IMG/VR virus record: IMGVR_UViG_3300049215_000171
Span: 1 to 64,000 of that record
Length of the DNA: 64,000 nt
Direction: 5' to 3' (one strand)
Source: a virus
Position numbers and translations under genes: made by a program. The notes under the pieces are model-generated. The model was not told the origin of the DNA. It did not search any database and was given only the letters and a program-made list of their open reading frames with translations. Each line of letters begins with the position of its first letter. The stretch's first letter is position 1. Positions 42,190 through 51,554 of the stretch are shown one piece after another.

Positions 42190-43203
42190 ATGAATTTAAT
42201 AACAAAGATGGTTTTCATAATTGCAGGAGTTGTCGTATTTGGAGCGGTGGGATTTATTATTTACCAGCAGATACAATTGCATAATATGCAAACGGCAATC
42301 AATCAGTCCGTAATTGAACAAAAACAATTAGCAGATCAAATACTCAGATCACAAAGTTCTTATGTATCTAAGGACGATCTTAACAATTTTGCAAAACAAA
42401 ATGATATAAATCTCAATACCATTAGCAAAGATTTGAGCACACTTGGTGCTTCGCTTACTGGTATAAATCACGTTGTAGTAAATAGCAGTGGAACGGTTGC
42501 AACAAATGTTAGCTCCACTAGTACTACCCCAGACACGCATCCATCAACAGTACCAACGGTCAAATGCAACGGTCAGGACATACCTTGTCCTAATGCAGAT
42601 CCGTATGGTTATACAAGTAATATTCAGCATTTGGAATTGAATGAGCAATTTGTTGGGGCTACGGTTCCTATCGGAAATGTTTCTTTTGATGCTGGCAATA
42701 AAACGCCGTGGAGTGAAGACATTTACCCACGAACATATTCGGTAAGCAATGTGCTTGGAACAACAAGTGATGGCAAACACGTAGTGTATAATAAAGTAGA
42801 AATAACTTCAAATGGTAAGACAGTTCCAGTAAATGTTAGCACGGGTAAATTCGAGGAGACTTACCCTGCATCTTCATTTACATTATTCAATCCTAGGTTA
42901 TTTTTAACTAGCGGGGGAGCATTAAATCTATCACACTTAAATGGTTCGGCAAACTTAGGTATAACTATGCAGATTTCATCATACGGTAAAACGCTTGCAC
43001 AACCAGCAATCAGTATATTACAATTAGGCGCTGGATATCAGACTGGAACGCAAAATGCCACGGCAATAATAAATCCAGTATCGTTTAATATTGGTGGCGT
43101 ATTCCCCAAAGGAATTGTGGATTCTTCATATATTGGCCCATCATTTCAGGTAGATATAAAAGGCAATATGTTCGTCGGTGGAAATTTAAGCGTGGGATTC
43201 TAA
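42190..43203 (+). CDS. Membrane-anchored protein with coiled coil and beta-rich ectodomain
   Basis: A 337-residue protein. Residues 7-27 (VFIIAGVVVFGAVGFIIYQQ) form one transmembrane helix with a short Lys-containing cytoplasmic start, so the remainder probably faces outwards. Residues 28-85 are Gln-rich and helical, likely a coiled coil. A Ser/Thr linker (100-125), a small Cys pair (KCNGQDIPCP) and a beta-rich domain follow. A good AAAGGA site precedes the ATG. It sits between glycosyltransferases, so it could be their acceptor or a scaffold. It could instead be an unrelated virion or envelope protein. No family is recognised. Confidence 0.6.
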   Translation: MNLITKMVFIIAGVVVFGAVGFIIYQQIQLHNMQTAINQSVIEQKQLADQILRSQSSYVSKDDLNNFAKQNDINLNTISKDLSTLGASLTGINHVVVNSSGTVATNVSSTSTTPDTHPSTVPTVKCNGQDIPCPNADPYGYTSNIQHLELNEQFVGATVPIGNVSFDAGNKTPWSEDIYPRTYSVSNVLGTTSDGKHVVYNKVEITSNGKTVPVNVSTGKFEETYPASSFTLFNPRLFLTSGGALNLSHLNGSANLGITMQISSYGKTLAQPAISILQLGAGYQTGTQNATAIINPVSFNIGGVFPKGIVDSSYIGPSFQVDIKGNMFVGGNLSVGF

Positions 43204-44040
43204 ATGCTACACATACTAACACTATCTTGGCAGGGTAAATCTAAATTAGAAAAACTTGCTCCAACACTAACCAAATCATTAAACAATATTGAATATAAAT
43301 GGTTAGTAAAAGAGAATGGTTCTAATGATGGTTCTATTGAATATCTAAATGGATTGAATAATCCCAATATAGTTCCAATACAATGGAAAGATAATTTACA
43401 AAACTTCGCTCAAGGATGTAATGTATTATTCAAGGAAGCATCACCAAAGGAAAGTGATTATATTCTATTACTCAACAATGATATCATTTTTAATGATACT
43501 GCGTCAATTAGGAACATGATTAAGATTATGGATAATGATGACGGTGTAGGTGTGGTTGGAGCAAAACTAAATTATACGAATACAAAAAAAATCCAGCATT
43601 GTGGGATAACATGGGACGGTCGTAAGGATCTTTTACCCTGGCACTATCGACTTGGTGAAATGGAAGACGCTAACGCTCGAAAAAATAGGGAGTTCGATGC
43701 TTGTACTGGAGCGGTTCTTTTAATTCGCGCTGGATTATACGAAAACGTATGCACAAATAAAGATGGATTAAAAGGATTAAATCAAGGTTATTTTTGGTGT
43801 TTCGAAGACGTGGATCTTAATATGAAAATTAAATACATAATGGATAAAAAAATTATATATTGTGGTGAAACGAATATCTTCCATGAAGAAAGTGCAACAT
43901 TAAAGAAAACAAATGCAAATCGTCTTTTTATGCAACACAATGTAAATCTATTCCGTAAAGAATGCAGTCAATGGATTATTGAAAATCATAAATATTATGT
44001 TGCAGATCCAAACTACAATCTATATAGAGGCAAAAAATGA
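43204..44040 (+). CDS. Glycosyltransferase, GT2 type
   Basis: A 278-residue protein that starts directly after the preceding stop codon. GT-A features are visible: HILTLSWQGKSKLEKLAPTL, WLVKENGSNDGSIEYL, the QGCNVLFKEA helix, LLLNNDIIF (NND in place of DxD), and CFEDVDLNMKIKYIM, with the ED that often provides the catalytic base. It resembles rhamnosyl-transferase-like GT2 enzymes. The last four bases overlap the next gene (ATGA), a sugar-nucleotide dehydratase, so the two are probably co-expressed and may act in sequence. Confidence 0.85.
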   Translation: MLHILTLSWQGKSKLEKLAPTLTKSLNNIEYKWLVKENGSNDGSIEYLNGLNNPNIVPIQWKDNLQNFAQGCNVLFKEASPKESDYILLLNNDIIFNDTASIRNMIKIMDNDDGVGVVGAKLNYTNTKKIQHCGITWDGRKDLLPWHYRLGEMEDANARKNREFDACTGAVLLIRAGLYENVCTNKDGLKGLNQGYFWCFEDVDLNMKIKYIMDKKIIYCGETNIFHEESATLKKTNANRLFMQHNVNLFRKECSQWIIENHKYYVADPNYNLYRGKK

Positions 44041-46121
44041 AAACTAAATTACTTATAACAGGAAGTTGTGGTTTTATAATTTCTAATTTTATTCGTAAAG
44101 CAATTTATGACAAAGCCCCATATGATCTAATTAGTATTGATAGAGTATCAAAATCATCATTGCTAAATAATATATTCGTAAATAAAAGCCATACATTCTA
44201 TCTTGCAGACATATGTGATGAGCATATAATAAATAGGATTTTCGAATATGAGAAGCCTGAAATTGTTTTGCACGGAGCTGCTTGTAGCTTCGTTGATGAT
44301 TCATTAAAGAATCCTAATGATTTTATTCGTTCCAATGTTCTTGGAACGCAGATAATAGTAAATGCTTGCGTAAAATGGGGTGTAAAAAAGCTGGTATATA
44401 CCTCGACTGACGAAGTTATGGGATCATTGAAATCGCCGAACGATCCGCCTTGGACAGAAGAAGCGGCATTAGATCCAAAGAATCCATATTGCTTAGCATC
44501 AGATACATTGGTGTTGACTGATAGCGGGCAATGGAAAGAAATAAAAACAATTGTAAAAAATAATAATATAATTGGATTTGATTTTCAGCAGAATAAACCA
44601 AAACTATCTACGGTAGAAGAATCCCTATTTAAGAATGGTGAAAAGTTATTAGAAATAAAAACAGAATTTGGAACATTAAAATGTTCACCAGAACATACAC
44701 TATTTATACGAAGATATAAAAGACTTGAGTCTGGCAAATTAGACGCCAAACATGCAAAAAAAAATAATACTATTCAAGAAATTAAATCTAAGGATCTTGT
44801 TGTTGGAGATTTTCTAGCTATGCAAAGACAAGACCCAGAGCCAACCAATTCAACAAAAATAAATCCGATGTTATGTAGATTTTTGGGTTATTTTCTTGGT
44901 GATGGTAATTGTGGTAGAAATACTAAAAATAAGAATACAATGTACATAAAGCTAGCTGATGAATCAAAAGAAAGGTTAGAACGTTATTGTGATATTATTA
45001 AAATAATAACTAAAGAATTATATGGCAGGGAGGCGCGTCCAAGTTTTTATAAACACAGTACAAAAAATTGCTGGTACCTTAGTTTTGGATGCCAACCATT
45101 AATAGAGCTAATTGAAAAATTAAAATTAAATAATAAATCAAAAGACAAAGTAATTTCTCCTGAAATATTTAATTGGTCAAACGATGCCATTTATGAGTTT
45201 TTAGCTGGTTATTTTGACGCTGATGGTAACATAACTAATTGTCAAGGATTGACGGCTTCATTTTCTAGTTCTAGTTTAAAATTATTAAATAATATAAAAT
45301 TACTATTGCGTCGAGCTGGGGTATTGGCACACGAATCAAATGAATATAATATTATTAAATGGGGAAAAGAAAGAGTGTATTGGAAGTTAAATATATCAGA
45401 TTCTAAATCAATGATGATGTTTAAAAAATATATAAAATCAGATAAAAATATATATGAAGTTTTAGCAAAACCACAAAGAATGCTGGATGATAATAATTTA
45501 GTTGTTGTAAGGGTTCAAGAAATTTTAGTTAAACAAACTGATGATATATTATATGATATATGTGCCCCCGAAACTAAAAATTTTATAGCTAACGGGTTTA
45601 TAGTGCATAACTCGGCTTCCAAAGCATCGGGCGAATTGATAATCAAAGCAGCAAATAATTCGTTCGGGCTTCCATATGTAATTACTCGTGCCAGCAATAA
45701 TTACGGCCCAAGACAATCAGAAAAGCTGATTCCAGTAATCATAAAATCAATTATGAATAATCAAAAAATTCCAGTGTATGGTAATGGCTCATTCCTTCGT
45801 GAATGGACTTATGTAGATGATAACTGCGCTGCATTGCTTGCAGTTCTTGGATCAGATAAAATTAATACGATATATAACATATCATCAAATCAAGAATATT
45901 CTAATATAGAGGTCGTGCAAGAAGTATGCAACTCAATGGGCGGTGGTCATAACCTAATTGAGCATATTACCGATCCTCGTGGCAACGGACATGACTTCCG
46001 TTATTCCGTGAATTGTGATAAGATCAAAAGTGAATTAAATTGGAAGCCAGAAGTAAAATTCAAAGATGGTATTGCCAAGACAGTCCAGTGGTATAAAAAT
46101 AATCCATACTTCGCAAAATAA
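44037..46121 (+). CDS. rmlB: dTDP-glucose 4,6-dehydratase (RmlB-type SDR) interrupted by an intein
   Basis: A 694-residue precursor. After removal of residues 152-525 the remaining 320 residues form an extended SDR enzyme: N-terminal NAD motif TGSCGFI, YTSTDEVMG (substrate/catalytic Thr-Asp-Glu), YxxxK split as Y151 | S-A-S-K529, RASNNYGPRQ, FLREWTYVDDNC and HDFRYSVNCDKIKSELNW. The T-D-E triad is typical of dTDP-glucose 4,6-dehydratases, which make dTDP-4-keto-6-deoxyglucose. The usual TGGAGFIG is altered to TGSCGFIIS. With an RmlA-like enzyme at 55824 it would supply a deoxysugar donor. No RmlC or RmlD is seen in the window. GDP-mannose or UDP-glucose relatives are possible. Confidence 0.85.
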   Translation: MKTKLLITGSCGFIISNFIRKAIYDKAPYDLISIDRVSKSSLLNNIFVNKSHTFYLADICDEHIINRIFEYEKPEIVLHGAACSFVDDSLKNPNDFIRSNVLGTQIIVNACVKWGVKKLVYTSTDEVMGSLKSPNDPPWTEEAALDPKNPYCLASDTLVLTDSGQWKEIKTIVKNNNIIGFDFQQNKPKLSTVEESLFKNGEKLLEIKTEFGTLKCSPEHTLFIRRYKRLESGKLDAKHAKKNNTIQEIKSKDLVVGDFLAMQRQDPEPTNSTKINPMLCRFLGYFLGDGNCGRNTKNKNTMYIKLADESKERLERYCDIIKIITKELYGREARPSFYKHSTKNCWYLSFGCQPLIELIEKLKLNNKSKDKVISPEIFNWSNDAIYEFLAGYFDADGNITNCQGLTASFSSSSLKLLNNIKLLLRRAGVLAHESNEYNIIKWGKERVYWKLNISDSKSMMMFKKYIKSDKNIYEVLAKPQRMLDDNNLVVVRVQEILVKQTDDILYDICAPETKNFIANGFIVHNSASKASGELIIKAANNSFGLPYVITRASNNYGPRQSEKLIPVIIKSIMNNQKIPVYGNGSFLREWTYVDDNCAALLAVLGSDKINTIYNISSNQEYSNIEVVQEVCNSMGGGHNLIEHITDPRGNGHDFRYSVNCDKIKSELNWKPEVKFKDGIAKTVQWYKNNPYFAK
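44490..45611 (+). mobile_element. Intein with LAGLIDADG homing endonuclease in the dehydratase
   Basis: A 374-residue in-frame insertion. It begins with Cys (CLASDTLVLTDSG, block A), has block B-like GTLKCSPEHTLF, two dodecapeptides (FLGYFLGDGN near protein residue 282, FLAGYFDADGN near 387) and ends ILYDICAPETKNFIANGFIV then His-Asn before Ser+1 (blocks F and G). All residues needed for splicing are present: Cys1, block B His, penultimate His, terminal Asn, Ser+1. The endonuclease looks intact, with acidic residues in both dodecapeptides. The insertion falls between the catalytic Tyr and the next Ser of YxxxK. Confidence 0.93.
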
Positions 46122-46170
46122 AAATAATATTGGTTATGTTGGCGAAAAAGAGTTAAAGAACTAAGTTGTT

Positions 46171-47583
46171 ATGAGCAGCGGATTCATAAGTGAAAAAGGT
46201 AAAATCAAGATGACAGCTCAAACTACAAGACTAAATACGGTAGGAGAAACTATTGTGGATGATATAACAAATGAGAAACCGGCTATGGATATAGATCAAG
46301 AAAAACTTGCAAGATTAAAAGCAAAATTAGCAGAAAAAACTAAGGATGTCGATATAGTAAAACAAGAGGAACCAATGAGTGTAAAACCAGTGAAGAAAGA
46401 ACGATCAATTAATTTTGGAATAATTGGTTCGGGACAAGCAGGGAGCAAGTTAGCTCAACAATTCCGTGAGTTTAATTATGATTGCGTTGTTTTAAACACA
46501 ACACAAAACGATTTGAAATTTATTGATGTGCCCGAAAGCAACAAATTGTTATTGGAATATAATGCTATTGGTGGGGCAGCTAGAACACTTAGTATTGGTC
46601 GAGAGGCAACGGAAGCTAACGCTGATGCAATAAAAGAACTAGTTAGTAAACAGTTAGCAGATGCACAAGTGTTTGTTTTATGTTCGTCATTGGGTGGCGG
46701 TAGCGGAGCAGGCAGTTGCGAGGTATTAGTAAATATTCTAAATGAATTAGGTAAGCCAATTATAATTATTGGAGTATTACCAATGCATTCAGAAGATCTT
46801 AAAGCAAAATCGAATGCTATGGAAACACTTGCGGTACTATCAAAAGATTTACAAAATAAAAAAGTAGCTAATATTATATTGGTAGATAATGCAAGGATAG
46901 AATCTATTTATTCTAATGTTGGTCAAATGGATTTTTATTCGGTTGCAAATAAGGCAATTGTTGAACCATTAGATATGTTTAATTTATTGTCATCAGCACC
47001 ATCATCAATTAAAAGTTTAGACAGTATGGAATGGTTAAAGATTTTAATTGACTCATCAGGATATTCTACATATGGTTCAATGGAGATCGAAGATTTTAGT
47101 TCCGAAACTTCGATAGCAGAAGCTATTATATCAAATATGAATAATAATCTGCTTGCAAGTGGTTTTAATATTAAAGAAAGCAAATACGTGGGGTTTATTG
47201 TTGCAGCAAATAAAACCGTGTGGAAAAGTATTCCGGCCGTTGCTATAAATTATGCTAACGCATTATTAACAGAACAATGTGGAACACCTGAAATATTCAG
47301 GGGTATCTATGAAATAGATGAACCACGAGATGTTGTTAAAATTTACTCATTTTTTTCTGGGCTCGGTATTCCAGCAGAGCGTACTACACAATTAACCGAA
47401 GAAATAAAAAATCTATCAAACGTTGTAAAAGAAAAAGAAACTGCACGTAATCTAAATGTAGCACTCAACACAGGTAAGAATACCACAATAACTGACGCAC
47501 AAAAAGTCAAAGATAAAATTGCTGCCAAAACAAGCACATTTGGAAAGTTTCTTGGTGGAAATGTGGTAGATCGAAGAAAATAA
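46171..47583 (+). CDS. Phage tubulin/FtsZ-like GTPase
   Basis: A 470-residue protein (or 457 from ATG 46210, which has a purine-rich site upstream). It has an unrelated N-terminal extension of about 80 residues, then the tubulin fold: FGIIGSGQAGSKLAQQF (T1), the GGGSGAG signature at about 174-180 (GTP phosphate loop), KSNAMETLAVLSKDL, and SLDSMEWLKI, in which Asp and Glu match the T7 catalytic DxxE. A further FtsZ-like block lies at YVGFIVAAN. Phage tubulins of the PhuZ/TubZ group form filaments that centre or segregate phage DNA. Here both nucleotide binding and T7 hydrolysis residues appear intact. It is clearly divergent from cellular FtsZ. Confidence 0.85.
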   Translation: MSSGFISEKGKIKMTAQTTRLNTVGETIVDDITNEKPAMDIDQEKLARLKAKLAEKTKDVDIVKQEEPMSVKPVKKERSINFGIIGSGQAGSKLAQQFREFNYDCVVLNTTQNDLKFIDVPESNKLLLEYNAIGGAARTLSIGREATEANADAIKELVSKQLADAQVFVLCSSLGGGSGAGSCEVLVNILNELGKPIIIIGVLPMHSEDLKAKSNAMETLAVLSKDLQNKKVANIILVDNARIESIYSNVGQMDFYSVANKAIVEPLDMFNLLSSAPSSIKSLDSMEWLKILIDSSGYSTYGSMEIEDFSSETSIAEAIISNMNNNLLASGFNIKESKYVGFIVAANKTVWKSIPAVAINYANALLTEQCGTPEIFRGIYEIDEPRDVVKIYSFFSGLGIPAERTTQLTEEIKNLSNVVKEKETARNLNVALNTGKNTTITDAQKVKDKIAAKTSTFGKFLGGNVVDRRK

Positions 47584-47635
47584 TAAATATAATACCAATG
47601 GTAAAGGAAAGTAATAAATTAGTAAAATAAGTAAA

Positions 47636-48073
47636 ATGGGATTGAGAGCATTCAACAATATGTTTTCTATGGGAGCTCTCGAAATAGAGCTAACTAAAAA
47701 ACCAAAGCAAATATCAAAAATGTTGCTGAATGTTTCGGCATCACCCAATGCTAAAATCAAATCAATTAAATTTCGTCCAAATGTATGGAATGATGATTTT
47801 GATGATAGTTTTGTAAAACCAACAAAAGAACAACTCGCAAATATTGTTGTTGAAAAACCAACAATAACAGTAAAAAGCGACGGTGGAACAGTAACATGCG
47901 ATGCCCCAAATGGTGAATATTTTACTGCTGGTAATCTAATAAAAGTAATTGAAAAAACTGAACGAAAAACAAGGAAGAATACTGAATGGTTCGGAGGAAT
48001 AGATGTTCATCATATCTATTTTGAGGGATTACATAAAGAAGGCAAGTATTATACAATTTATTGGGGTAGTTAA
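47636..48073 (+). CDS. Hypothetical protein
   Basis: A 145-residue basic protein with a beta-rich C-terminal half (PTITVKSDGGTVTCDAPNG; DVHHIYFEGLHKEGKYYTIY). It sits between the tubulin and endolysin genes. No family, membrane segment or catalytic motif is recognised. The coding assignment rests on clean reading frame, start position and the absence of any overlapping alternative. Confidence 0.55.
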   Translation: MGLRAFNNMFSMGALEIELTKKPKQISKMLLNVSASPNAKIKSIKFRPNVWNDDFDDSFVKPTKEQLANIVVEKPTITVKSDGGTVTCDAPNGEYFTAGNLIKVIEKTERKTRKNTEWFGGIDVHHIYFEGLHKEGKYYTIYWGS

Positions 48074-48095
48074 GGAATTAAGGTAGGAGAAATAA

Positions 48096-49193
48096 ATGGC
48101 AGATTTAATAAAAGGTATCGACGTCAGTTCAGTCCAATCAGTAGTTTCTTGGCAAGCAGTAGCACAACAGGGAATTAAATTCAGTATTATGAAATGCGCT
48201 GAAGGAAATAAAGGTACCGACACGTTCTATAAGAAAAATATGACTGGCGCACAAGAAGCAGGGCTATATGTTGCCTCATATCATTTTATATATCCGCTAC
48301 CACCATTGGCATCACAGCCCGGTCGTGATCCAGTCAAACAAGCACAAATGCATTTTGCAGTAGCGGATAATAATAATCCAGTAATGATTGATTGTGAATG
48401 GCCTGCCCCACCCGATTTCCAAAAATGGAATTGTACACCAAGTCAAATTAACGATTGGATGTTGCAATATCTTCAAGAATATGAACGACTTGCAGGCAAA
48501 AAGCCCGTTGTCTATACGTATCCTTATTGGGCTAGTGCCGTAAAGTTTTCGCAAGATTTCGCCCAATATCAATTATGGATAGCCTCATACGTTCCAACAC
48601 CGGTTATACCTCATCCTTGGACGGATTGGGTTATGTGGCAAAACACAGGTGGTGGCGGAAAACTCCCTAACGGGGCACCAGTGGATACTGACCTATGCCG
48701 TGATTTAAGTCTATGGGGCGTACAAACCCCTCGAATGACTGGAACGAGCGTTCCTACGGTCAATACGGCTCCGCAAATGCCACCTCCACCAGTAGGCACA
48801 CCGCTCAACACAATGCTCGATGTTCAGCGCGCACTAAACCTCCTCGGAGGGGCAGGAACGCCACTATCAGAAGATGGCAATAATGGGCCAAAAACCATAT
48901 CAGCCATAGAAGCATTTCAAGCATCACGCGGACTTCCAGTAGATGGTATTCCTAACCCAGCAACAAAGACAGTATTACAGGGTGCAGTAGCATCAATGGC
49001 AACACCAGCAGTAGCATCATTGCCAGTAGTCGTAGCAACTCCAGAACCAATTCATCCAGTAAATCCAGAACCAAATCCAGATGCAGTCGGTCCTTCACCA
49101 GCAAGACCGCCTCATCCTACATTACCGCCCAATTTTTGGAACAATGTTATGAATGTCGTTATGGGATTCCTGAAGAATGTGTTGCATATATAA
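48096..49193 (+). CDS. Endolysin: GH25 muramidase with peptidoglycan-binding domain
   Basis: A 365-residue protein behind a strong AGGAG site. Residues 1-210 are a GH25 (Chalaropsis-type) lysozyme: KGIDVSSVQ with the first catalytic-site Asp, FSIMKCAEG, YHFIYP, MIDCEW (D99 and E101, the D-x-E pair with catalytic Glu), KPVVYTYPYWA and LWIASY. Residues 238-296 form a peptidoglycan-binding type 1 domain (LDVQRALNLLGG; GPKTISAIEAFQ). A Pro-rich linker and a short amphipathic tail end the protein. It cleaves the glycan backbone of peptidoglycan to release progeny. No signal peptide is seen, so a holin is expected. Confidence 0.9.
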   Translation: MADLIKGIDVSSVQSVVSWQAVAQQGIKFSIMKCAEGNKGTDTFYKKNMTGAQEAGLYVASYHFIYPLPPLASQPGRDPVKQAQMHFAVADNNNPVMIDCEWPAPPDFQKWNCTPSQINDWMLQYLQEYERLAGKKPVVYTYPYWASAVKFSQDFAQYQLWIASYVPTPVIPHPWTDWVMWQNTGGGGKLPNGAPVDTDLCRDLSLWGVQTPRMTGTSVPTVNTAPQMPPPPVGTPLNTMLDVQRALNLLGGAGTPLSEDGNNGPKTISAIEAFQASRGLPVDGIPNPATKTVLQGAVASMATPAVASLPVVVATPEPIHPVNPEPNPDAVGPSPARPPHPTLPPNFWNNVMNVVMGFLKNVLHI

Positions 49194-49606
49194 TGTATTG
49201 TCCACAATGTTCATTTCCGCTTATTGAAACGGAATCAAAAGAAGAGTTGCCATCATCATATAGCGTTCCATATGGAACGTTTGTTGGTACGTCAAGTGTT
49301 GGTAGTCTTGTGTTTGGTAGTGGCGGAGTAGGAAGTGGCTCCTCAGGCCAATACCTAACTAATCAGGGAACGGGATGGGTTCCGACATCACCACCATTAC
49401 AGAAAGTATTCAATTGTCCAAAATGCCATATATCCGTCAAAATAGATGATGATAAGAAATCAAAAGAAAAGAAAGAATTAATGAGAATAATTGAAGGACT
49501 TATGGAACAAAAGAAAAAGTGTGATGATATTGTAGAAGCCTTCAATAATAGATGGGGCGATAATCAAAGTGTTGAGAAGCTGGAAGCGTTGTTGATATTG
49601 AAATAA
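49193..49606 (+). CDS. Small zinc-ribbon-like protein with Gly/Ser insert
   Basis: A 137-residue protein. ATG 49193 overlaps the endolysin stop (TAATG), which I prefer to a TTG start within the endolysin. CPQC at residues 3-6 and CPKC near residue 80 form two halves of a possible zinc ribbon. They are separated by a low-complexity Gly/Ser/Val segment and followed by a Lys/Glu helix. No family is recognised. Translation is coupled to the endolysin. Confidence 0.55.
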   Translation: MYCPQCSFPLIETESKEELPSSYSVPYGTFVGTSSVGSLVFGSGGVGSGSSGQYLTNQGTGWVPTSPPLQKVFNCPKCHISVKIDDDKKSKEKKELMRIIEGLMEQKKKCDDIVEAFNNRWGDNQSVEKLEALLILK

Positions 49607-49857
49607 GAAATCCAATTACGAAATGGTTATATAGTGGAGGTGATTATGATCAATGGGGAAAATTAGTATTCACAGCAATAGGATTATATGTATTATTTTT
49701 TCCTATAACCGTTCCAATATCAATTTATTATGCATTGACAGAAAAACCATACACACCGCCAGAGCCAATACCAGAAACCGAGGAACAAAAATTGAAACGC
49801 GAAACGTATGCGTATAAATTTAAGTTCCGTAGAAATAATATAAAAAAGAAATCCTGA
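49597..49857 (+). CDS. Small single-span membrane protein, candidate holin
   Basis: An open frame from 49576 to TGA 49855-49857 codes for a convincing membrane protein. A polar start (RNPITKWLYSGGDYDQWGK) leads to one hydrophobic segment (LVFTAIGLYVLFFPITVPI), a Pro/Glu segment and a basic tail (KFKFRRNNIKKK). There is no ATG, GTG or TTG before the membrane segment. Possible starts are ATT 49597 or ATA 49603, or a -1 frameshift from the preceding gene, which ends at 49606. One membrane span, small size and position after the endolysin suit a holin or accessory lysis protein. This is an inference. Confidence 0.45.
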   Translation: MEIRNPITKWLYSGGDYDQWGKLVFTAIGLYVLFFPITVPISIYYALTEKPYTPPEPIPETEEQKLKRETYAYKFKFRRNNIKKKS

Positions 49858-49874
49858 TTAAATTTTATAAAACT

Positions 49875-50087
49875 GTGGGCAAGAAGAATAGGATAATAAA
49901 ATCAAATACTAACACTAAATTAGTATCAAAAGATGATGATACACATTATTGTGTTGGCGGAGAGCAACACAAAGACGGATGCGATTGTCAATGTGATTTT
50001 TGCGGTCGAAGACGAGATGAATTAGATAGAATTGAATTTAATAAAAAATTGAGTAAGAGAATTGCAGAAGGATACGAGAAGTGGTAA
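49875..50087 (+). CDS. Small Cys-rich hypothetical protein
   Basis: A 70-residue protein with GTG start. It is basic at the N-terminus, with a central cluster of five cysteines (HYCVGGEQHKDGCDCQCDFC) that could bind a metal. It ends in a charged helix (RRRDELDRIEFNKKLSKRI). It abuts the helicase gene. No function is recognised. Confidence 0.5.
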   Translation: MGKKNRIIKSNTNTKLVSKDDDTHYCVGGEQHKDGCDCQCDFCGRRRDELDRIEFNKKLSKRIAEGYEKW

Positions 50088-51554
50088 ATGACAAAACTCC
50101 TAGTCAAAGAGAAGTTTTCTAAAATCATTGAAGAAGATGATCCAGATTTCCTAAAACAATTACATAATCACTTGTCATTTAAGTATGAAGGTGCAGAGTT
50201 CAGTCCGCAATTTAAAAGAGGATTTTGGAACGGTCGTGAATATTTAATGAATAAAAAACAAGAGTTCTATTCAGGATTAGTAAATTATGTAAATGATTTC
50301 TATATAAAGAATAACAAGCAATTAGAAATTGTAAATCAAAAATTACTAATAATAGATGCACCAAGCATTGACATATCACATAATCTAAAAAAACTAGATT
50401 TAGTTCCATACGACTATCAGTTGAATGCGGTAGAATATAGTTTAGATAAAGACCGTGCAATATATAAACACGCAACAGGGTCGGGTAAAAGTTTAACGAC
50501 AGCATTGATTACGGCGAAGTTCGGGAAACCTACACTGGTTATGGTTATATCGAAAGAATTACTGCATCAATTTCATTCTTTTTTTTCATTATTATTTGAT
50601 CAAGAAATTGGTATTGTTGGCGATGGTATTTGTCAAATAGGAAATATAACAATAGCATCAGTATGGACATTAGGTAAAGCATTAGGATTGAAAACAAAAG
50701 ACATATCATTGGATGATACAATTTCAGATGAGAAGTTCGATGAAAATAATACTAAAAAAATAATTGATTGTATGGTGGGTGCTAAAATAGTTCATTTAGA
50801 TGAAGCCCACGTGGCTAGTGCTAAAACAATTAGAAGTATTTATAAAGTAATACAGCCAGAAAGGTTGTTTGCGTGGTCGGGTACGCCTAGCCGTGATGAT
50901 GGATCTAATCTTATTTTGACGGGAATACTTGGTGATAATATACACGAAGTTAAAGCATCAGAATTAATAAAGCGTGGTATTCTCGCAAAGCCAATGATCA
51001 AGTTCATATATATAAAGGGTTATGCAAAATATGATACACCATATCAAACAGTATATAGTGATCATATAGTAAATAATGAATATAGAAATAATATACTTGT
51101 ATCAGAAGCAGAAAAATTGATAGATAAAGGATATCAGGTATTAGTATTATATAAGGTATTAAATCACGGAAAGATTTTGCTGAAATTATTTGAGAATAAA
51201 GGCATTGACACCGAGTTCCTTAGTGGTAAAGATTCAACGAAGAAGCGAGCGGAAGTTAAGGAAAATTTACTTAGCGGTAAATCGAAATGTGTTGTAGCCA
51301 GTATGATTTACGATATCGGTATTAATATAGAAACATTGAGTGCATTAGTATTGGCTGGGTCAGGTAAAAGCAGTGTGAAAACATTGCAGAGAATTGGAAG
51401 AGTTTTGAGAGATGGTAAAAATAAACCTTATGTGGCGATTGTCGAAACGATGGACGACATTCGATACCTGAAAAAACATTCGCTAATTAGAAAAAGTATT
51501 TATGAAACGGAAGAAGAGTTTGTAATTAAATTTCCAGAATTGAAAAAGAAATGA
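50088..51554 (+). CDS. UvsW-like superfamily 2 DNA helicase
   Basis: A 488-residue protein starting directly after the preceding stop. After an N-terminal domain of about 100 residues (SPQFKRGFWNGREYLM) it shows helicase motifs in order: YDYQLNAVE (Q-like), ATGSGKS Walker A at 129-135, DEAH at 238-241 and SGTPSRDDGSN. The second domain has LFENKGIDTEFLSGK, KCVVASMIYDIGINIETL and QRIGRVLRDGKNK (motif VI). The N-terminal domain and motif spacing resemble T4 UvsW, a branch-migrating helicase used in recombination-dependent replication and fork rescue. UvsW may also unwind R-loops to silence early origins. The last bases overlap the next gene (ATGA). Confidence 0.85.
   Translation: MTKLLVKEKFSKIIEEDDPDFLKQLHNHLSFKYEGAEFSPQFKRGFWNGREYLMNKKQEFYSGLVNYVNDFYIKNNKQLEIVNQKLLIIDAPSIDISHNLKKLDLVPYDYQLNAVEYSLDKDRAIYKHATGSGKSLTTALITAKFGKPTLVMVISKELLHQFHSFFSLLFDQEIGIVGDGICQIGNITIASVWTLGKALGLKTKDISLDDTISDEKFDENNTKKIIDCMVGAKIVHLDEAHVASAKTIRSIYKVIQPERLFAWSGTPSRDDGSNLILTGILGDNIHEVKASELIKRGILAKPMIKFIYIKGYAKYDTPYQTVYSDHIVNNEYRNNILVSEAEKLIDKGYQVLVLYKVLNHGKILLKLFENKGIDTEFLSGKDSTKKRAEVKENLLSGKSKCVVASMIYDIGINIETLSALVLAGSGKSSVKTLQRIGRVLRDGKNKPYVAIVETMDDIRYLKKHSLIRKSIYETEEEFVIKFPELKKK

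Follow-up and report, generated by a model that had tools for sequence, protein, structure and literature searches.

A predicted TubZ-like tubulin as a standard gene of a widespread clade of huge phages

Phage tubulins have been split into a TubZ group, with the tubulin of phage c-st, and a PhuZ group, and the roles described for them are mostly two: spindle in phages that form a nucleus, and partition motor in plasmid prophages (PMC7950403). According to a survey of large phages from 2025, tubulin distinguishes the Chimalliviridae, together with a handful of scattered other phages (PMC11835377); in one jumbo-phage cluster, PhuZ occurs without detectable chimallin (PMC11448039), and the tubulins of huge phages have been mentioned without detail (PMC7162821). 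In this study, we analysed a window of 64,000 nucleotides (positions 1 to 64,000) of the 67,272-base IMG/VR record IMGVR_UViG_3300049215_000171. The window contains a 470-amino-acid open reading frame (ORF) on the plus strand at 46171-47583, and a first-pass annotation had described this ORF, in the same frame and on the same strand, as a divergent phage tubulin whose GTPase and T7 residues are intact.

Domain searches agreed with this description: the ORF matched the Pfam profiles Tubulin (E 8e-15, 56 bits against a cut-off of 33) and TubZ-like_C (PF22453; E 2e-7, 31 bits against a cut-off of 26), which were found in 41/41 and 38/41 members of the family, respectively. The G-box reads GSGQAG, and the nucleotide-binding motif GGGSGAG lies at residues 162-168, counted from M14 of the ORF (46693-46713, plus strand), with GGGSGxG, a signature of the superfamily's GGGTG[ST]G type, invariant in the 41 members. 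The T7 loop reads LDSME, and both acids of its DSME segment, D271 and E274 (47020-47031, plus strand), are likewise invariant in the 41 members and are placed by the predicted model at a loop and the start of helix 272-280. In the tubulin/FtsZ superfamily, the T7-loop acid completes the active site of the neighbouring subunit. The GGGSGAG motif and the DxxE T7 loop reported at the first reading are present; together with the G-box, they vary little or not at all among 41 non-redundant relatives. The ORF product, as judged from its sequence, is a GTPase of this superfamily. Compared with the closest large relative of the window, a 406 kb contig, the tubulin core displayed 128 synonymous and 14 non-synonymous codon differences, indicating strong purifying selection.

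The start codon of the gene was assigned by comparison with its relatives. Residues 1-13 of the 470-amino-acid ORF are largely common to close homologues, whereas distant relatives begin at the equivalent of M14 and show no homology to the leader; moreover, a Shine-Dalgarno sequence of the AAAGG/AAGGA type lies directly 5' of the ATG matching M14, and in the window AAAAAGG (46193-46199) is located 10 nt before the ATG at 46210. The start is therefore most likely ATG 46210, giving a tubulin-family gene at 46210-47583 (plus strand) that encodes 457 amino acids plus a stop, and the in-frame leader M1-K13 (46171-46209, plus strand) is probably untranslated or may provide an alternative start. An N-terminal extension of 80 residues had been proposed in the first-pass annotation; the extension is real and conserved, but its length from this start is about 65 residues.

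An AlphaFold model built on 41 sequences had a mean pLDDT of 81, and the greater part of the core exceeded 90. The core (46405-47445, plus strand) is predicted to adopt a tubulin/TubZ-like fold with a long C-terminal helix (389-419), and its best structural matches were TubZ (Z 40.2 and 40.0; 2.5 A over 358 residues), followed by CetZ (37), phage c-st TubZ (33) and FtsZ (about 32). By sequence, the nearest solved structure was a plasmid TubZ (RepX, E 9e-16), and CetZ and FtsZ came next; in the model, too, the core is closest to plasmid TubZ, ahead of CetZ and FtsZ. Among predicted viral proteins, the best match was A0A6J5RW92 from an uncultured Caudovirales phage, which is 52% identical over nearly the whole length and is named 'FtsZ Cell division GTPase', indicating that family members are already in UniProt under generic names. 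We found no description of these proteins as a family, A0A6J5RW92 included, in the open-access literature.

In a 40-sequence maximum-likelihood tree, the phage tubulin family formed one clade (97/100), separate from the clades of FtsZ (100/100) and PhuZ (100/100, on a long branch). A second tree, with gp138 of Bacillus phage G added and four long rows removed, placed the family beside TubZ (85/92); forced unions of the family with TubZ (p 0.44), PhuZ (p 0.50) or FtsZ (p 0.40) were not rejected, and a sister relation to each is allowed. The protein scored 62 bits with the FtsZ equivalog TIGR00065, for which the cut-off is 295, and so does not qualify as FtsZ by this model. The trees indicate that the family is a clade of its own outside FtsZ and PhuZ and is not nested within host FtsZ, and the recent acquisition of a host FtsZ, which the first-pass annotation had named as an outcome that would speak against its reading, was not seen.

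The two ends of the protein are conserved outside the fold. The extension (residues 1-65; 46210-46404, plus strand) is mostly disordered in the model except for a helix at 30-51, and an alignment of 42 non-redundant sequences revealed three conserved boxes in it, all on the plus strand: box 1, ExIVDDIS (46246-46269), with D17 and D18 in over 90% of the sequences; box 2, VDxxKLAxLKAKxxAK (46291-46341), which is helical; and box 3, MAAKIVxKKERS (46372-46407). The C-terminal tail (47446-47580, plus strand) is basic, with a net charge of +7, and contains a helix at 429-448 modelled at moderate confidence. Its consensus in the 42 sequences is RNLxLxLDTG...AQKIKDKIAxKSSxFGKL...VVDRRK, and it is conserved at 2.5 bits per column, compared with 2.8 for the fold. 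The extension may link the filament to DNA or membrane, as the first-pass annotation had suggested, but a membrane-binding amphipathic helix in the tubulin was not supported (p 0.09-0.27; p 0.16 for the helix of the extension), and the possibility that the N-terminal helix and the tail are a duplicated motif was rejected, the best window match being equalled by 95/500 shuffles.

The window belongs to a 67 kb fragment of a huge phage. Relatives of the tubulin that are 93, 96 and 80% identical are encoded on contigs of 406,470, 101,913 and 133,216 bases, respectively, and synteny with these contigs is extensive over the window. Compared with the 406 kb relative, the tubulin is the most conserved protein of the window among those compared (93%, the others 30-92%). 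The source phage encodes a contractile tail sheath, helicases resembling UvsW and DnaB, and its own sigma factor; its baseplate wedge protein distantly resembles that of Bacillus phage G, and Tunturi_5, the other phage in which a related baseplate protein occurs, gave no match to the 41-row tubulin profile. When about 100 kb of T4 was compared, the 406 kb relative matched UvsW (6e-28), UvsX (9e-9) and gp47 (2e-6), as well as homing endonucleases. A T4-type late promoter, TATAAATA, was considered and discarded, since its 26 sites against 21.7 expected represent no enrichment.

At least 93 IMG/VR loci encode the tubulin according to an 11-member profile, many of them on contigs of 300-480 kb. 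The clade was also searched by a neighbouring gene instead of the tubulin; this search retrieved 17 contigs, and all five contigs of at least 200 kb carried exactly one tubulin gene, indicating that it is a core gene rather than a sporadic one, whereas the contigs without a tubulin were mostly short or ended near the locus. The tubulin is thus, as far as these contigs indicate, a standard gene of a widespread clade of phages of roughly 350-480 kb. A single-protein query of the GenBank phage collection returned no close relative, and the phage G homologue was detected there only with the 41-row profile. Bacterial and archaeal genomes, 84,980 in all, were scanned twice with short exact patterns that distant relatives would escape, and no close relative was found; TubZ-type proteins with 23-32% identity were found in sixteen plasmid records, mostly from Bacilli.

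The order sugar epimerase, tubulin, lysin/UvsW is conserved in the family; of the 93 loci, 80 were kept. In the window, the tubulin gene lies between a sugar epimerase gene with an intein (44037-46121) and a GH25 lysin gene with a peptidoglycan-binding domain recognized by domain search (48096-49193), followed by a gene for a UvsW-like helicase (50088-51554), all on the plus strand, in agreement with the lysis and glycosylation genes that had been reported beside it. Downstream of the tubulin, UvsW was found in 64 loci, a protein of about 200 amino acids in 61 and the GH25 lysin in 31, and in the 76 loci that have a recognized whole gene, the tubulin is co-directional with its conserved neighbours in a closely packed string of genes. 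The presence of structural, glycosylation and lysis genes around it would suit a role in late particle traffic but is no proof of one.

The most likely explanation of these results, to which we give about even odds, is that this is a TubZ-like core tubulin of huge contractile-tailed phages that would form GTP-driven filaments in the lytic cycle. Such filaments could position phage DNA as it replicates, or they could transport capsids and tails and gather them within the cell; the tubulin would then stand in for PhuZ in phages that have no chimallin shell. The extension and the tail may be flexible peptides docking phage-encoded partners, a role suggested by their retention despite strong divergence of the other proteins among these phages.

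Plasmid TubZ is known for DNA partition, and the closeness of the fold to this protein counts against lytic filaments. Like TubZ of the TubZRC systems of Bacillus plasmids, the phage protein has a TubZ-like C-terminal domain, a long C-terminal helix and a D..E T7 loop in a similar predicted fold, although the two share only about 20% identity, and the phage protein has an additional N-terminal extension and a different conserved tail. A TubZ-type partition motor could keep the genome plasmid-like in a pseudolysogenic state, with an unlinked or unrecognized TubR-like adaptor acting on the basic tail. Phage G, a phage of about 500 kb, offers a parallel: its gp138, which carries the annotation putative FtsZ-like, is a homologue (profile E 3e-42) that lacks the N-terminal extension and has a Bacillus pumilus plasmid TubZ as its best match, and directly upstream lies gp137, a TubR-like protein of 98 amino acids resembling the gene 5' of that plasmid TubZ. 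On both counts, the gp137-gp138 site (L182:1890-3317, phage G 78389-79816) resembles a tubRZ pair. The first-pass annotation had mentioned the partition of plasmid-like genomes by TubZ, but the locus lacks the corresponding partners. In each of the seven plasmid TubZ loci that we examined, the gene immediately upstream is small and of TubR size; no TubR gene was found there for this tubulin, the epimerase occupying that place in 77/80 loci; no tubC-type iteron array was detected in 45800-50100 with a repeat finder that was only moderately sensitive on plasmid controls, and the median gaps to the adjacent ORFs, 24 and -1 bp, leave no space for centromere repeats. In addition, neither integrase nor ParA was found in 12 contigs of 349-481 kb, although both were detected in control genomes, which fits a lytic lifestyle. 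We therefore consider a partition motor unlikely.

The tubulin might instead be the spindle of a phage nucleus whose shell protein has diverged beyond detection as chimallin, given that, in giant lytic phages, the tubulins known so far are mostly in the service of a nucleus (PMC12908238) and that the jumbo-phage cluster mentioned above has a PhuZ without a detectable shell protein. As in the phiKZ-like Chimalliviridae, this is the tubulin of a giant phage, but it belongs to a separate clade and is about 130 residues longer than phiKZ PhuZ, which has neither extension nor tail. A search for a chimallin-like shell protein, suggested in the first-pass annotation, gave no match in 14 records of possibly incomplete contigs with the phrog_4795 profile, which detected all four controls (phiKZ, Noxifer, Phabio and the divergent RAY) at 1e-209 or better. 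Multisubunit RNA polymerase of phages operates inside nuclei of the chimallin type, and the phiKZ-type enzyme (phrog_3015) was also found in none of 12 contigs, again possibly incomplete, with 2/2 controls detected. This profile was used for RNA polymerase because Pfam PF04997 (RNA polymerase) and PF00136 (DNA polymerase B), which gave no matches, missed phiKZ itself, so that their negative results are uninformative. Furthermore, none of the 91 phiKZ ORFs tested, from about 90 kb of phiKZ, matched the 406 kb relative. Such absences are not proof, because IMG/VR contigs may be incomplete, but they make a diverged nuclear shell rather improbable, somewhat more so than partition. Least probable of all, in our estimate, is an FtsZ mimic that would join or poison the host division ring, so that blocked division lets the cell hold a large burst; membership of the same superfamily and intact polymerization residues would permit it, but the sequence is far from FtsZ in the equivalog score and in the trees, the conserved tails are unlike the FtsZ C-terminal peptide, and a full tubulin with every catalytic residue would be a costly division inhibitor.

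A further proposal, which we consider less likely than not, is that phages have a third type of cytoskeleton here: a chimallin-independent tubulin array, core to phages of 350-480 kb without phiKZ-type RNA polymerase and tethered to its cargo by the N- and C-terminal peptides. The clade is common in IMG/VR and carries a core-like tubulin with neither the shell protein nor the phage polymerase detected, suggesting that needing a tubulin is separable from having a nucleus. The sharply conserved peptide motifs provide handles for finding the cargo of the tubulin, and the relative in phage G allows comparison in a cultured phage.

Several further observations were made around the locus. A protein encoded at 42190-43203 of the window has an apparent N-terminal membrane helix and a coiled coil and is kept about 3 kb 5' of the tubulin in 55 loci; it is a possible membrane partner of the tubulin. 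Small proteins of about 90-115 amino acids that appear LSm-like by eye are encoded 3' of the tubulin in some 37 loci (for example, L094:5001-5351, L128:9855-10196 and L136:3589-3855), where the window carries a different protein of 145 amino acids (47636-48073). The intein of the window epimerase (Intein_splicing and LAGLIDADG_3) interrupts the SDR active-site motif, reading PY, C...HN, SASKA, and the epimerase copies in G002 and G003, at 320 amino acids, are not long enough to contain it. In two relatives, the nucleotide-binding loop of the tubulin is interrupted by an intein that contains a homing endonuclease (L145:6366-9137 and L147:6330-9134), in the order G[ST]GQAG, C...HN, S; a literature search found no earlier description of a tubulin intein. 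In one relative, the DnaB-like replicative helicase is apparently split by an intein-like insert (L157:13075-15018).
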